This document shows positions 1 through 64,000 of a stretch of 64,000 nt of DNA, one piece after another. A program made the translations under genes and the position numbers. The notes beneath the pieces were generated by a model. It ran no database searches, was not told the DNA's origin, and saw only the letters and a program-made list of their open reading frames with translations. How positions within the stretch are numbered: position 1 is the stretch's first letter; the number at the start of each line of letters is the position of its first letter. This DNA comes from Thalassobacillus devorans MSP14 (lineage in GTDB: Bacteria; Bacillota; Bacilli; Bacillales; Halobacillaceae), in assembly GCF_000496835.1 (NCBI RefSeq), contig NZ_KI543236.1:888901-952900 (forward strand), in the 5' to 3' direction.

Positions 1-72
1 TCGCCTGTCTCGGTAACGAACCCAAATTACTTTGAAACTGAGTCTTCCACAATTCGGCCATATTGTTGAATA
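1..72 (-). repeat. X-end of a palindromic repeat element (copy R0), cut by the window start
   Basis: This is the reverse complement of the left end of the element at 24998. About 54 bases match exactly (GGTAACGAA, CTGAGTCTTCCACAATTCGG), followed by the X-tip GGCCATATTGTTGAATA. The rest of the element lies before the window. In B. subtilis dapH directly precedes ykuR, so this copy probably sits between the two genes. Confidence 0.8.
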
Positions 73-132
73 TGGATCTTGTGAAATCATCAACTACGTT
101 TATATAGACCCATAAAAAAGAGGTGAGGAAGT

Positions 133-1624: not shown

Positions 1625-2908
1625 ATGGAAACCACTATAAAGCTTTTGGCAGTAGCCCTGCTCATCATTCTGACGGCTTTTTTTGTAGCAAGTGAGTTTG
1701 CGATCGTCAAGGTCAGAAAAACAAAGATGGAAGCAAGGGCATCTGCAGGGGATAAAAAAGCGGAAAGTGTATTGCGGCTGACAAACAACTTAGACTATTA
1801 CCTATCGGCGTGTCAGCTTGGTATCACAATTACAGCATTAGGATTAGGCTGGCTTGGGGAACCCACCCTGGTTGTGCTCGTTGATCCGCTGATAGAAGGA
1901 TTTGAGCTCCCGGCCGGAATCACTCATGCCATTTCTTTTGGAATCGCTTTTTTTGTCATTACCTTTTTACATGTGGTTTTAGGAGAATTGGCACCGAAAA
2001 CGGTGGCGATTCAAAAAGCGGAAGGGATTACGCTCGCCTTAGCAAAACCGCTGATACTCTATAGTAAAATGATGTATCCTTTAATCTGGCTCCTGAATGG
2101 CTCGGCCAATGTGCTGGTCCGTATGTTCGGTTTCCATGCAGCAAAAGAATCCGAAGAGGTTCATTCCGAAGAAGAGCTCCGGCATATTCTCTCAGAAAGC
2201 TATCAGAAAGGGGAAATCAACCGTTCTGAATTCACCTATGTAGATCGTATCTTCGAATTCGACAACCGCACGGCAAAAGAAATCATGATTCCCCGGACCG
2301 AGGTTGCTGTCCTGGATATCAATGATTCCATCAAAGCGATCAGCAGGTATATCCATCAGGAACGGTTCACACGATATCCAGTCATTGATGGCGATAAAGA
2401 TCATGTGTTAGGTGTTATACACTTGAAGGAATTATTTTATCATGATTATGAAGATTTGGATTCGTTAGAACCCTTTATCCGTCCTGCATTCAAAGTGTTT
2501 GAAAATATCCCTATCCATGATTTATTGGTACGGATGCAAAAAGAACGGACCCATCTTGCTGTTCTGATTGATGAATATGGCGGGACTTCCGGGATTGTGA
2601 CGATCGAGGATATCATTGAAGAAATTGTCGGGGAAATTCGTGATGAATTCGACCATGAAGAAGAGCGGGCGATCAAACGACTGAAAAATGGACACTTCCT
2701 TGTGGAAGGAAAAGTATCCATCCAGGATATGAATGAATATTTCGATCTTGATCTGGATAATGAAGACTATGACACGATTGCCGGATTCATATATACGAAT
2801 GATATTGACGCATCCGAAGGTACAGAGGTTACCCACGGCAGCTACCATTTCAAAATTGTCGATATGGTGGACGGCCAAATCAGAAAAGTGGAAGTATGGC
2901 AAAGTTAA
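1625..2908 (+). CDS. CNNM/CorC-type (hemolysin family) membrane protein
   Basis: 427 residues with an N-terminal CNNM transmembrane domain of about four helices (residues 1-185), then two CBS domains (about 205-330) and a C-terminal CorC/HlyC domain (about 345-425). Characteristic segments are ASEFAIVKVRKTKME after helix 1, GELAPKTVAIQKAE, and EYGGTSGIVTIEDIIEEIVG in the second CBS domain. Some family members, such as MpfA/YhdP, export magnesium, but the substrate cannot be told from sequence. GAGGAGAG lies before the ATG. This paralogue is not in the B. subtilis ykuS-ykuT interval, so it is a lineage-specific addition here. Confidence 0.88.
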   Translation: METTIKLLAVALLIILTAFFVASEFAIVKVRKTKMEARASAGDKKAESVLRLTNNLDYYLSACQLGITITALGLGWLGEPTLVVLVDPLIEGFELPAGITHAISFGIAFFVITFLHVVLGELAPKTVAIQKAEGITLALAKPLILYSKMMYPLIWLLNGSANVLVRMFGFHAAKESEEVHSEEELRHILSESYQKGEINRSEFTYVDRIFEFDNRTAKEIMIPRTEVAVLDINDSIKAISRYIHQERFTRYPVIDGDKDHVLGVIHLKELFYHDYEDLDSLEPFIRPAFKVFENIPIHDLLVRMQKERTHLAVLIDEYGGTSGIVTIEDIIEEIVGEIRDEFDHEEERAIKRLKNGHFLVEGKVSIQDMNEYFDLDLDNEDYDTIAGFIYTNDIDASEGTEVTHGSYHFKIVDMVDGQIRKVEVWQS

Positions 2909-2910
2909 CA

Positions 2911-2936
2911 AAAATGCCCGGGCAAACGCCAGGGCA
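2911..2936 (+). terminator. Weak hairpin after the CNNM gene
   Basis: ATGCCCGGGC pairs with GCCAGGGCAT with one mismatch, followed by CATTTGTT. The U-tract is poor, so termination may be partial. Confidence 0.5.
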
Positions 2937-3010
2937 TCATTTGTTAAGAAAAAGTGATATTTTACGGAACATAGGTGGTCAGTACTGGAACAAAGCGGAT
3001 GTTACGGTTA

Positions 3011-3865
3011 CTAAGCTTCCGTACCAATTTTTTTCTCAATATTGACCTGATGAGGAAATGGAATTTCAATGCCCGCTTCATCAAGCGCTTCTTTCATTGC
3101 ACGGCGTAAATCCCTTTCTACAGCCCATTGCTCCATGTTAACTGTCTTACCAAGTACACGCAGGACGACATCTGAAGAACCGAGACTTTGCACTCCTAAT
3201 ACGTCGGGACCTTCTTTAATCCGTTCGTCTGTTAGCGCAAATTCATCACAGACACGCTGCAGCACAGTATGTGCTTCCTCGATATTTTCATCATAGGCAA
3301 TGCCAATATCAATCATCGCACGCATATTACCGCGGGAGTGGTTGCTGACACCTGAAATTTCCCGGTTAGGGATATAATGCAGGGTGCCATCAAACCCTCT
3401 CAATTTGGTGGTTCGCAACCCTACTTCTTCGACAACTCCATCGTAACCTGCTGCAGTAACATAATCATCGACATCCACCTGCCGCTCGATCAAAATGAAG
3501 AACCCTGTAACGATGTCACTGACAAGTCCCTGGGCACCAAAGCCGATAGCCAGGCCGACAATACCGGCACCGGCAAGTAATGGACCGATTGGAATTCCTA
3601 TCATTTCCAGCAGCATGACAACGAAAACGAACATCAGGATATAGGAAAAGACATTGATCATCAGCCGTTCCAGTGTTTTGGTACGAGGTTCAGGAATTTT
3701 CCTGTGTTTACTGATACGGATGATCGCACTGCTGATGGCTTTCCGGCCAATCGGCGCTATAATAGCGAAAGCGATAATCAGTAACAGTATTTTTAACCCG
3801 ACCGTAATCAATAGCTCAGAGATTTCCGCAAAATTAAATTGGAAACCTTCCTCAAACAAATTCAT
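3011..3865 (-). CDS. ykuT: MscS-family small-conductance mechanosensitive channel YkuT
   Basis: 284 residues with about three N-terminal transmembrane helices (residues 15-120) and a cytoplasmic MscS beta/alpha-beta domain. The pore-helix signature GLAIGFGAQGLVSDIV (about 105-120) and the following FILIERQVDVDDYV segment identify the family. It releases solutes on hypo-osmotic shock. The ATG at 3865 is 8 nt from AGAGGAG and is preferred over an in-frame GTG nine bases upstream that overlaps that site. It is divergent from ykuU, as in B. subtilis. Confidence 0.92.
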   Translation of the reverse strand: MNLFEEGFQFNFAEISELLITVGLKILLLIIAFAIIAPIGRKAISSAIIRISKHRKIPEPRTKTLERLMINVFSYILMFVFVVMLLEMIGIPIGPLLAGAGIVGLAIGFGAQGLVSDIVTGFFILIERQVDVDDYVTAAGYDGVVEEVGLRTTKLRGFDGTLHYIPNREISGVSNHSRGNMRAMIDIGIAYDENIEEAHTVLQRVCDEFALTDERIKEGPDVLGVQSLGSSDVVLRVLGKTVNMEQWAVERDLRRAMKEALDEAGIEIPFPHQVNIEKKIGTEA

Positions 3866-14654: not shown

Positions 14655-14918
14655 ATCCAGCTCCAGCGCCTACCCCCTCGAGGTCTTAAGTCAATCCTCT
14701 CTGTGATTAGGAAAACTAAGGCTTATCGCCAATGGTTTATGGCGAAAGCCTTAGTTTTACTTATACTTTAAACCTAATTGGTCTAAAAGTACAAAGAACG
14801 TCACGCCGAGGCTTGTCTTAAGCTTGTCGGAGGCCTGCAGGATGCAGGTCAGTTCGACGTTGGCACAGGACGTGCCGTTCTTAGTCGAACATCATTACTA
14901 GCAAGGCGTTTGCGCTTT
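14655..14918. repeat. Composite palindromic intergenic repeat with a nested hairpin
   Basis: The left arm has CAGCTCCAGCGCC and CTCGAGGTCTTAAGTC. The right arm has GAGGCTTGTCTTAAGCTTGTCGG and ends with CAAGGCGTTTGCGCTTTT. The two arms are partly inverted relative to each other. The hairpin at 14712-14758 sits between them, and a further segment with AAGAACGTCACGCC and GGACGTGCCGTTCTT forms another inverted pair. No ORF of merit is present. Arms of this kind recur in other Bacillaceae genomes as far as I recall. Confidence 0.6.
14712..14758 (+). repeat. Hairpin repeat H1 (TCGCCA loop family)
   Basis: AAAACTAAGGCTTATCGCC pairs with GGCGAAAGCCTTAGTTTT with one bulged A around loop AATGGTTTAT. 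Related copies lie at 19691-19740 (minus) and 37434-37486 (plus). Confidence 0.75.
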
Positions 14919-24946: not shown

Positions 24947-24997
24947 TTTCTTATATATATTTGCGATGAATCGGAAGCTGATTCTTCATGAGATGCC

Positions 24998-25663
24998 TAT
25001 TCAATAAAATGGCCGAATTGTGGAAGACTCAGTTTCAAAGTAATTTGGGTTCGTTACCGAGACAGGGGAAAGGGTGGCTGGGAAACGATTCGCTTTCCAG
25101 CTGCATCGCCTAGACACTCGCGACATAAGCAGTCCATCAACGGGAAGAAAAAACACTTCCCTTTTGCTGTTCTGCTTATGCGTGTCGTGTCTCCCAAGGC
25201 GATTACGCATTCGTTTCTTTCCTGTGGGGGAGGCTGGCAAGCCTCCTCGGCCGTTTCACGACCTGTGGGGTCTCGCCTAGCCCCTTCTCCCACGGGAGTC
25301 TCACCGTTTCCCCGCCACCTTATCCATATTTTGACGAACGAACCCTACGTTGTGAGAAGATATCTTCCACATTTTCTGCATGAAAAGCTCAATGATTCAG
25401 GAAATAAGCTCTTTTCAGCTGTTAAGATGGTGGTTCCGCATATCGATGTTTCCGTTAGTCTTACAAATGCAAGGAGGGCCGGGAAATTGCGAGACTCCGA
25501 TGGGAGGATAGGACATGGTGAGATCCCGCAAGGCGGAGCCTGAGGAAGCTCACCGGCCGCCCATGGAAAGCGAGTGATTTCCCGGACCTCCAAACCGTTA
25601 CTATCGTAACGGAAACAATGTATCTCGAAACTGATTCTTCCATAAAAGGGAGCTTTACTGTAA
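24998..25663 (+). repeat. Palindromic repeat element copy R1 (complete, X end left, Y end right)
   Basis: A 666-bp non-coding element. The X end is TATTCAA...GGCCGAATTGTGGAAGACTCAG and the Y end is GATTCTTCC...GGGAGCTTTACTGTAA. Inside are a reversed GC-rich module (about 25068-25318), a 150-bp spacer with the palindrome GAAGATATCTTC, and a forward GC-rich module (about 25472-25590). Bases 25079-25498 are nearly identical, inverted, to 63582-64000 (two differences seen). ORFs running through it are on both strands and repeat the same DNA, so I treat them as spurious. It fills the 811-bp pdhD-25713 gap. Confidence 0.85.
25099..25222. repeat. Nested three-level hairpin inside R1, flanked by CTTTCC repeats
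   Basis: ATCGCCT pairs with AGGCGAT, CGACATAAGCAG pairs with CTGCTTATGCG, and an inner GGGAAG pairs with CTTCCC. Copy R2 runs straight through this point, so the segment looks inserted. CTTTCC occurs at 25093-25098 and again at 25217-25222. Confidence 0.65.
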
Positions 25664-25712
25664 GATCAACAAAGCGGAGGTATGGAAGGCTTTTCTGAAA
25701 CGATTACTATGT

Positions 25713-31094: not shown

Positions 31095-31106
31095 AAGAAC
31101 ATAACC

Positions 31107-31120
31107 TGAAAACGATTACA
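31107..31120 (+). promoter_or_regulatory. CcpA (cre) site at the start of SR1
   Basis: TGAAAACGATTACA matches the cre consensus TGWAANCGNTNWCA at every position. It covers about +7 to +20, a roadblock position. CcpA contributes mildly to SR1 repression in B. subtilis. Confidence 0.8.
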
Positions 31121-31150
31121 AAAATTCTTGTAAAGGAGCTGGATGTACAG

Positions 31151-31264
31151 ATGGGTACAATTGTATGCCAAGATTGCCAAAGAATTATTGAACATTATGA
31201 GGATGAGAAGGTTTCAACTCTTTATAGTACTTGTCCGTCATGCAACCCGAAAGAGAAAAAATAA
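31151..31264 (+). CDS. sr1P: GapA-binding peptide SR1P
   Basis: 37 residues starting MGTIVCQDCQRIIEHYEDEK, with a second Cys pair in TCPSCNPKEKK. The Cys-x-x-Cys pairs and the start match SR1P, the peptide encoded in the SR1 small RNA of Bacillus. SR1P binds the glycolytic enzyme GapA and stabilises its operon mRNA. AAAGGAG lies 12 nt before the ATG. A CcpN-type operator pair, a cre site and a terminator frame it. The ORF is short but the identification is strong from sequence and context. Confidence 0.9.
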   Translation: MGTIVCQDCQRIIEHYEDEKVSTLYSTCPSCNPKEKK

Positions 31265-31280
31265 ATTAGTGTGACATAAT

Positions 31281-31318
31281 GAACCCCACCGGAAGAAGAT
31301 CCGGTGGGGTTCTTTTTT
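31281..31318 (+). terminator. SR1 terminator
   Basis: Perfect 12-bp stem GAACCCCACCGG / CCGGTGGGGTTC, loop AAGAAGAT, then seven Ts. A near-match to a CcpN site (TGTGACATAAT, 31270-31280) abuts its 5' side. Confidence 0.93.
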
Positions 31319-42370: not shown

Positions 42371-42408
42371 ACTTGGCTGACCAAATTGCCTTTAGTTCTA
42401 TTGATTTT

Positions 42409-42927
42409 CAGTAATAGCTCCCAATAGCTGAAGACTCAGTTTCGAGATGGTTGGGGCCGTTACCATGAGCGGAATGGAATGGTCCGGGAAACAACTCGCT
42501 TTCCTGCGGGGGACCTGGCAAGCTTCCTCGGGCTAAAGCCCTGCGGGATCTTGCCTAGACCCTTCTCCCGCGGGAGTCTCGCCGTTTCCCTCCCCATCCA
42601 GCCAGTTTTGTATTAAACGGACCCTTCACAAAGAGAAAGAATGTAGCTGAAATCTTCATCCTGAGGCATTTTACAAAGGATGAGAGGCATTAAAATCTTC
42701 AATCATAGGACAGTTTTCTTCGGCTGATTTTGAGAACTTCCCACGGCAAGGGGGCGTAGGGAAACGGTGAGACTCCTGTGGGAGCTGAGTGATAGATGAG
42801 GCCCCGCAAGGCGAAGCCTGAGGAGACTCAGCACACGCCCACGGAAAGCGAATCGTTTCCCGCAGCCCCTTACCTCCATCAATATCTCGAAATCGAGTCT
42901 TCCACAATTCGGCCAAATAGGTGAATA
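42409..42927 (-). repeat. Palindromic repeat element copy R2 (complete, Y end left, X end right)
   Basis: 519 bp. The Y end is CAGTAATAGCTCCCAATAGC followed by TGAAGACTCAGTTTCGAGAT. The X end is ATCTCGAAATCGAGTCTTCC followed by ACAATTCGGCC...GTGAATA. The reversed GC module is at about 42481-42594, the spacer at 42595-42745 and the forward module at 42746-42870. The CATAAGCAG hairpin of R1 is missing. The remaining gap to ylaN (42928-43139) holds only a weak promoter-like TTGACT at 43018. Confidence 0.85.
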
Positions 42928-43139
42928 AGCCATTGTATAAGACAACAGCACTTTTATAAGCGCCATCAAACTAAAAGCATGAGGTGGTAAAAACGAGACT
43001 CCCCGTAAATTTTCCCCTTGACTCATTTATTACAGAATAGTAATTGTATGTTGTAATGGTGAAAATATATCTTATGTTGCAATTTATCGGGACAGACGAT
43101 AATATATTAAATAGAAGTCTGTTATTGGAGGGGATGTTG

Positions 43140-57101: not shown

Positions 57102-57129
57102 ATGAAATGTCTAGCTCTGGTTAGAGTTT

Positions 57130-57300
57130 TATTCAATTATATGGCCGAAAAGTCGAAGACTTGATTTTGAGATATTTGTGGAGCTTAGGGGCGTTTGGGA
57201 AGGATTCGCTTTCCAGCTCCATCCCATCCTTTCATGGTAACGGACCCACTATCTCACTATCTCGAAACTGAGTCTTCAGCAATTGGGAGCTTAATTGTAA
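57130..57300 (+). repeat. Deleted copy R4 of the X/Y palindromic element
   Basis: 171 bp with both ends kept. The X end is TATTCAA...ATGGCCGAAAAG then TCGAAGACTTGATTTTGAGAT. The Y end is ATCTCGAAACTGAGTCTTC then AGCAATTGGGAGCTTAATTGTAA. Only the outer GGGAAGGATTCGCTTTCC part of a module remains between them, plus a GGTAACGG subterminal motif. Confidence 0.8.
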
Positions 57301-57319
57301 GGTCCACAATGAGATTTTA

Positions 57320-57365
57320 AAAAAGCGTTCTGTATGGAAATTAATTTCCATACAGAACGCTTTTT
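57320..57365. repeat. Perfect 46-bp palindrome
   Basis: The 23-bp arm AAAAAGCGTTCTGTATGGAA continues with ATT and is followed by its exact reverse complement with no spacer. It can act as a bidirectional terminator, as A and T runs are at both ends. It lies between R4 and R5. Confidence 0.85.
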
Positions 57366-63374: not shown

Positions 63375-63408
63375 AAGAAGCCAGCCGAAAGACGGACTGG
63401 CTTCTTTT
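63373..63408 (+). terminator. Terminator of ylbG
   Basis: AAAAGAAGCCAG / CTGGCTTCTTTT, starting at the stop codon. Confidence 0.88.
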
Positions 63409-63414
63409 CATTTA

Positions 63415-64000
63415 TTACAGATAAGCTCCCAATTGCTGAAGACTCAGTTTCGAGAGAAACTGTTTCCGTTACGGTGGTGAGCGTTTGGAGGTCCGGGAAA
63501 TCACTCGCTTTCCATGGGGGTACGGTGAGCTTCCTCGGGCTAAAGCCCTGCGGGATCTCACCATGTACTCTACTCCCATAGGAGTCTCGCAATTTCCCGG
63601 CCCTCCTTGCGTTTGTAAGACTAACGGAAACATCGATATGCGGAACCACCATCTTAACAGCTGAAAAGAGCTTATGTCCTGAATCATTGAGCTTTTCATG
63701 CAGAAAATGTGGAAGATATCTTCTCACAACGTAGGGTTCGTTCGTCAAAATATGGATAAGGTGGCGGGGAAACGGTGAGACTCCCGTGGGAGAAGGGGCT
63801 AGGCGAGACCCCACAGGTCGTGAAACGGCCGAGGAGGCTTGCCAGCCTCCCCCACAGGAAAGAAACGAATGCGTAATCGCCTTGGGAGACACGACACGCA
63901 TAAGCAGAACAGCAAAAGGGAAGTGTTTTTTCTTCCCGTTGATGGACTGCTTATGTCGCGAGTGTCTAGGCGATGCAGCTGGAAAGCGAATCGTTTCCCA
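63415..64000 (-). repeat. Palindromic repeat element copy R3 (Y end left, cut by window end)
   Basis: The Y end is TTACAGATAAGCTCCCAATT then GCTGAAGACTCAGTTTCGAGAG. A reversed module follows (about 63495-63605), then the same spacer as R1, a forward module, and the CATAAGCAG hairpin (about 63858-63982). It is in inverted orientation to R1, with two differences seen over about 420 bp. The reading frame at 63356-63901 is the same DNA and is not counted as a gene. Confidence 0.87.

Follow-up and report, generated by a model that had tools for sequence, protein, structure and literature searches.

Insertion sequences of the IS1595 family produce an 8-bp target duplication and have terminal repeats starting with GGC. 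The repeat which we describe here, named X/Y element after its two unlike ends, shares with the IS1595 elements and MITEs this duplication, the terminal repeats and, in gene-bearing elements with the same ends, an IS1595 transposase. It differs from them as it is non-coding, carries an inverted pair of hairpins that is absent from five gene-bearing elements, and has an interior that seems to have been exchanged after insertion. Another comparison is with the REPIN and BIME repeats and their RAYT transposases, which also occur as many intergenic copies and as inverted hairpin pairs. The X/Y elements are distinguished from them by target duplications, a different transposase class and no link to a RAYT, and their hairpin has about 105 bases versus 20–40 for REP according to an excerpt of PMC3733652. 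From a related genus, Bhal-1 of Bacillus halodurans is described as a stem–loop family of 74 bp with 36 copies (PMC2267715, in excerpt). Compared by this description only, it is similar as a stem–loop repeat family, whereas the excerpted description gives no ends, duplications or transposase. The same excerpt (PMC2267715) cites bcr1 of the Bacillus cereus group, a small repeat with mobile-element characteristics judging from the cited title; by this description it is likewise a small repeat of the Bacillaceae with mobile-element traits. Related subjects in the literature are gene conversion in M. tuberculosis (PMC12046097) and STAR repeats (PMC3532100). Within the open-licence literature we found no description of the X/Y element or of its interior exchange, and searching the letters of the core as text in open-licence papers returned none on bacterial repeats by title.

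We analyzed a stretch of 64,000 nucleotides of the Thalassobacillus devorans MSP14 genome, in the following called the window. The core of the X/Y element is the 19-bp inverted repeat GAAGACTCAGTTTCGAGAT. With up to 3 mismatches it is found at 7 sites in the 64-kb window and never in 100 shuffles. The 3.94-Mb host genome contains 107 sites with up to 2 mismatches, while the reversed pattern used as control has none. Our host sample consists of 80 stretches around cores among the matches listed, which need not be the complete set. A facing core pair is present in 74 of these stretches and absent in 6. The original prediction had placed five copies in the window and all five are located there. 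It had also claimed that every copy with two visible ends has one X and one Y end. This is the case for 3/3 such copies in the window; copies 1 and 5 run across the window edges, which leaves three of the five with both ends visible. Genome-wide, sliding the X and Y outer consensus sequences along the ends types 61 of the 74 host pairs as clear X+Y, 10 as ?X, 2 as ?Y and one as ??, thus in 13 pairs at least one end is too eroded to be typed. Pairs with two like ends, X-X or Y-Y, had been named as an observation which would speak against the family, and there are none among the 74 host pairs. For three related genomes (T. cyri, which is our G001, and the congeners G003 and G004) we counted 44 XY, 9 ?X, 3 ?Y and one XX among 57 pairs; the sole XX is L333, which has lost the Y tip at its left end. 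The predicted fixed wording of the tips, with TATTCAA or TTACA outside, is too strict. Besides GGCCGAATTG and AGCTCCCAATTG, the X tip also reads GGCCGAAAAGTC or GGCCGGATTATG and the Y tip also AGCTCCCTTTTATG, and copy 3 has neither an exact TTACA nor an exact TATTCAA. By their interiors, the 69 host copies of 300–800 bases fall into family A (35 copies), B (17) and C (11) and 5 single ones, with L076 left out. The features of the copies in the window are compiled in Table 1.

Table 1. X/Y element copies in the 64-kb window and their parts
Feature	Position	Strand	Remarks
Copy 1, right part	1..111	+	X inverted-repeat core 29-47, X tip, eroded terminal repeat ending near 111 (L072: 5 mismatches)
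Copy 2, family A	24958..25689	-	L096; full extent inferred from usual core-to-terminus distances
Copy 2, X-end inverted-repeat core	25023..25041	+	core search
Copy 2, X-half hairpin	25080..25315	.	contains extra ~124-base stretch at ~25102-25226
Copy 2, Y-half hairpin	25481..25583	.	
Copy 2, Y-end inverted-repeat core	25622..25640	-	core search
Copy 3, family B	42381..42967	+	L030; full extent inferred; terminal repeats eroded
Copy 3, Y-end inverted-repeat core	42430..42448	+	core search
Copy 3, Y-half hairpin	42486..42590	+	
Copy 3, X-half hairpin	42759..42861	-	inverted vs Y-half hairpin
Copy 3, X-end inverted-repeat core	42884..42902	-	core search
Copy 4, truncated	57113..57327	-	L017; X core 57155-57173, Y core 57259-57277; hairpins mostly deleted
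Copy 5, family A	63389..64000	+	L018; Y core 63438-63456; start inferred from usual distance

The Y end of copy 1 lies to the left of the window start. Copy 5 runs past the window and its X core is found 38–56 bases beyond the window end. The terminal repeats of copy 2 are eroded beyond recognition, with 8 mismatches per side against a control median of 10. The interior of copy 2 is 77% identical to that of its T. cyri ortholog (L123) and 98% identical to its best host paralog. The place aligned to copy 2 is free of X/Y elements in G003, G004 and G002; in G003 and G004 a short related element follows further along. Copy 3 has no counterpart at the corresponding place of T. cyri, G003 or G002; in G004 this gap is occupied by a family A element, probably a separate insertion. 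At E 1e-5, copy 3 is not matched by any plasmid or phage. Copy 4 has 123 bases between the outer core edges, and its outer extent is taken from weak terminal-repeat matches (7 mismatches at X, 6 at Y). Family A has two size classes, 618–619 and 495 bases, which differ by about 124 bases in the X-half hairpin. This additional stretch is palindromic by eye and sits between two TTTCC-type motifs (L018, L033, L055, L065, L096 and others); it is possibly a nested smaller element. At gathering scores, Rfam has two matches in the window, neither on an X/Y copy: Bacillaceae-1 RNA at 14834–14900 and the SR1 antisense sRNA at 31095–31314.

The X and Y tips had been taken for the limits of the element. 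They are instead subterminal: intact elements extend about 25–40 bases further, that is about 50–65 bases outside the cores, to GGCTCTGTTAAA-N6-TGTTGATTT. The full-length X/Y element L129 of G004 has 619 bases and carries this terminus on both sides; next to either terminus stands ATTTTTTA as a direct repeat, an 8/8 duplication. In T. cyri and G003 the site of L129 carries no insert. We collected from all loci examined 74 elements with both termini at up to 3 mismatches. The 8-bp duplication is perfect in 41 and matches in at least 7/8 positions in 59 of them, while mismatched termini as a control give 0.2% (8/8) and 2.0% (at least 7/8). The duplicated targets are A+T-rich (mean 91%). The 74 host pairs are more worn. 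With up to 6 mismatches a terminus is recognized at 29/74 Y sides, at 25/74 X sides and at both sides in 10/74, against 1/146 in the control. Of the ten copies with both termini, 4 have a duplication of at least 7/8, compared with 3/90 mismatched pairs. Among the 59 duplicated elements 54 have no open reading frame of 300 aa or more; in five of these 54 that are X/Y elements, frames reach at most 105 aa. The elements hence have terminal inverted repeats, a target duplication of fixed length, no internal transposase gene and an orthologous empty site, the criteria for a MITE. The prediction of a defined family with unlike ends that acts as a unit is borne out by the terminal repeats, the 8-bp duplications and the empty sites.

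With up to one mismatch the terminal pattern occurs in 22 of 41 genomes. When named genomes were scanned, at least 80 rows were obtained, mostly Bacillales by title; the genera among the matches listed are Thalassobacillus, Neobacillus, Mesobacillus, Sutcliffiella and Paenibacillus with a few Clostridia and metagenome bins, a spread which is a lower bound. Five elements (L156, L264, L269, L276 and L280) have the same termini as the X/Y family and duplications of 7/8 or 8/8; they are A+T-rich (28–31% GC), non-coding, 444–1044 bases long and lack the hairpin core. Another host region (L079 880–3250, G000:C1:597000-602000) contains core-like repeats that have diverged and whose outer tips are of another kind; this may be a distinct element related to the X/Y family.

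The five duplicated elements which do have an open reading frame of at least 300 aa are L164, L168, L242, L243 and L263. All five lack the hairpin core. We scanned the proteins of L164, L168 and L242 with transposase models, leaving out L243 and L263, and 3/3 match IS1595 transposase models, with E values from 2.9e-12 to 6e-18 for PF12762 and 205–215 bits against a cut-off of 75 for NF033547. These three proteins, from elements of other genera, are therefore classified as IS1595 (ISXO2-like) DDE transposases. Since elements with the same ends encode IS1595 transposases in other genera, the X/Y repeats are, on the sequence evidence, almost certainly non-autonomous MITEs of the IS1595 type. PF12762 is found in 5 of the 41 genomes and is absent from the host (G000) and four congeners, so that the five genus genomes yielded no intact IS1595 transposase. 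Searching the genus genomes with the L164 protein gave only a broken stretch of 56 residues, in G003. The autonomous partner with the same ends, for which a search had been proposed, thus exists in other genera and is not found intact in the host or in the four congeners. We suggest that an IS1595 transposase once moved the elements in trans and was later lost from the lineage. As no intact IS1595 transposase is left in the five genus genomes, most copies would now be fixed and their outer ends would be eroding. Three observations on open reading frames may be added. L145 (G039) has a frame of 105 aa near a terminal-repeat match, which by eye resembles a piece of an IS1595 transposase. L021 carries at 1220–2450 an IS3-like element, named by eye (frames of 94 and 279 aa), nested in an X/Y copy, and L073 has at 1986–3287 a reverse-transcriptase frame of 433 aa, by eye like that of a group II intron, inside an X/Y copy.

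Inverted hairpin pairs are also the form of REPINs, and the X/Y repeats could be imagined as a REP/BIME-like system moved by a Y1 (RAYT-like) transposase. The host does have one Y1_Tnp gene (L097 1279–1866, 195 aa), and 30/41 genomes have a Y1_Tnp match. The 8-bp target duplications and the IS1595 ends do not fit such a system, the 3.3 kb around the sole Y1_Tnp gene contain no significant match to the element (best E 1.1), and G004 has 38 element matches and no Y1_Tnp match. This origin is in our view extremely improbable. Across the 41 genomes PF01797 tracks the repeat only loosely; G004, G006, G008, G021 and G036 have the repeat and no match, and we rejected a Y1/RAYT mover. T. cyri has a single, strong PF01797 match, by eye of the short IS200-like kind.

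In a full copy the two 19-bp inverted repeats enclose a hairpin of about 105 bases and, beyond a spacer, another hairpin that points the opposite way. We aligned 28 hairpin sequences of less than 82% identity, taken from 29 representatives with the long outlier L307 left out. The structure string of 27 pairs was drawn by hand after viewing the alignment and a run of RNAalifold. In the 28 hairpins 87.0% of the cells are paired versus 78.1% after shuffling, double-change cells number 79 versus 22.9, and the covariation score is 0.290 versus 0.143; for each of these measures the real value is reached by 0/500 shuffles. A weaker measure, further pair types, gives 36 versus 32.2 and is reached by 25/500 shuffles. 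When the partners are slid by 1–3 columns, at most 61% of the cells are paired and at most 16 show double changes. In the RNAalifold structure 15/25 pairs have double changes. These values suggest that selection acts to maintain base pairing in the hairpin. As to whether pairing occurs in RNA or DNA, there are 38 G-T versus 24 A-C cells, 26 of the 38 G-T cells coming from one near-invariant T-G pair. The hairpin core is present in 38 of the 54 non-coding duplicated elements and in 0/5 gene-bearing ones. Elements among the 59 with a single core mostly have about 140–320 bases, many of them 175–250. Two opposite cores are found in five of the 59, namely L129, L160, L293 and L352 of Thalassobacillus and L150 of G013, which belongs to another genus of the same family.

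The role of the hairpin could lie at the level of the element, as a cruciform or single-strand hairpin in replication or transposition. Alternatively, it could serve the host, for example in two-way insulation of transcripts. By simple calling of open reading frames, no X/Y copy lies inside a spanning frame of more than 200 aa. Relative to the neighboring genes, 70 of the 74 copies could be scored: 22 are Y-to-X in tandem, 20 X-to-Y in tandem, 18 convergent and 10 divergent. A strand-specific regulatory role is not supported by these orientations.

We compared the host copies with those of T. cyri, for which 64 stretches and L123, together 65, were available; 43 contain a facing pair and 22 do not. 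When the flanks were compared with those of the 74 host copies, 17 shared sites had the same orientation and one the opposite orientation. The 17 sites do not include the oppositely oriented pairs L352/L037 and L318/L078, nor the G004 pair L129/L030. At these 17 sites the flanks are 80–93% identical, and among the T. cyri copies the host copy is matched best by its ortholog in 0/17. At the 16 full-length shared sites the best host paralog is 90–100% identical. The interior family agrees at 3 of the 13 scorable sites versus 3.9 expected at random; here the mosaic L343 (C/A) counts as a mismatch, and four of the 17 sites were left unscored as the interior is short or truncated in one species. 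Over the core and up to 12 bases beyond it, the similarity between orthologs does not exceed that between random pairs. Between 12 and 30 bases a position-wise permutation analysis finds no signal, whereas a second analysis gives p 0.014 (Y) and 0.0015 (X). In the permutation analysis the ortholog signal is clear from 30–40 bases outward on the X side (p 0.006) and from 40–50 bases on the Y side (p 0.009); the Y side zone of 12–45 bases taken as one block gives p 0.12. From 40 bases outward on the X side, orthologs are more alike than random pairs with p < 0.001. It is thus very probable that the X-to-Y interior was exchanged after insertion at the shared sites. The single moving unit of the original prediction resolves into two nested ones: the unit that was inserted, an IS1595-type MITE, and the X-to-Y interior that would have been exchanged since.

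Different interiors at the same place would also result if different elements had landed independently in the same intergenic gaps of each species. Two gaps with opposite orientation, L352/L037 (T. cyri) and L318/L078 (G003), fit this explanation, and the A+T-richness of the duplications means that A+T-rich gaps may be preferred targets. Independent landing would, however, give about half of the sites in each orientation, and 17 of the 18 shared T. cyri sites agree; as a general cause it is therefore very unlikely. The greater likeness of the outer terminal repeats in orthologs, which on the X side is significant from 40 bases on, is also against it. By eye, L297/L056 and L349/L086 share many derived changes in the outer repeats and have interiors of different families, which refutes independent insertion at these places. 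L358/L061 and L361/L094 share, also by eye, a deletion in the terminal repeat, both with a truncated interior in T. cyri. From these shared deletions and changes it follows that all four pairs are single old insertions.

A short-read assembler could have joined wrong interiors to the right flanks. We worked with draft assemblies of up to 40 contigs, and in T. cyri several contigs break off at or within a repeat, thus some interiors could be misjoined; moreover, some copies are 98–100% identical. Yet for 6 of the 10 family-discordant T. cyri interiors the best paralog among the fetched copies, which are a subset of the copies of either genome, is 83–88% identical. With a divergence of 12–17%, a misjoin of another fetched copy would not yield such interiors. 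At 6 of the 10 matching host sites the best paralog, again from this subset, is 90–95% identical, so that reads inside the element are distinguishable. We regard assembly error as a highly improbable source of the pattern.

For the exchange after insertion, we consider homologous gene conversion the likely process, rather than a dedicated enzyme or an artefact. Gene conversion is read here from the pattern of the copies and not seen directly. Dispersed copies would recombine, presumably by RecA-type homologous recombination, whereby the X-to-Y interior is replaced and the older termini are kept. The limits of the exchange would lie about 12–40 bases outside the cores, and they cannot be placed more narrowly since the two analyses differ for the zone of 12–30 bases. 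Beyond the core X resembles only X and Y only Y, which would preserve polarity. The fixed polarity of the interior would thus be explained by the unlike X and Y ends. The best interior match is inverted in 0/128 elements. Conversion within one family would have hundreds of bases of homology at its disposal. Between the families A, B and C, homology is restricted to the short shared ends, roughly the 19-bp core and 20–30 imperfect bases, and this little homology leaves room for a dedicated exchange mechanism.

Such a mechanism could be a dedicated recombinase which swaps the X-to-Y cassette and uses the unlike ends as its sites. That the exchange extends past the inverted-repeat core on either side, and that unlike ends and polarity are maintained, would be expected for it. 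The X/Y elements themselves do not appear to encode such an enzyme: the 105-aa frame is the longest in the five examined, and the two long copies hold the nested IS3-like element and the reverse-transcriptase frame. Seven elements are mosaics with halves from different families, hence the exchange also breaks in the middle of the interior as homologous recombination would do, and an inversion between the inverted cores is seen in 0/128. We consider a dedicated recombinase decidedly unlikely. The wider proposal, that the X/Y ends define a dedicated cassette-exchange system in immobile IS1595 MITEs with site-directed swapping of the interior and hairpins kept by selection for a role in the host or the element, also appears unlikely. 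If it were true, swapping would be fast enough that between sister species an ortholog is never the best match and the family assignment looks random. Some T. cyri copies (L346, L349, L354, L360 and L363, together with the mosaic L343) have a core variant ending in GAGAC. The first five belong to family C and are 97–98% identical to their best paralog, which suggests a recent expansion of this group.

In summary, gene conversion among the copies, if it holds, would make the X/Y elements a natural record of ectopic recombination between dispersed bacterial repeats. The eroding outer ends would date the insertion and the interior would date the last exchange. The rate and the minimum homology of gene conversion between short repeats could then be measured from genomes, and MITEs of the IS1595 type would be the source of a structured repeat found in many genomes of the Bacillales.
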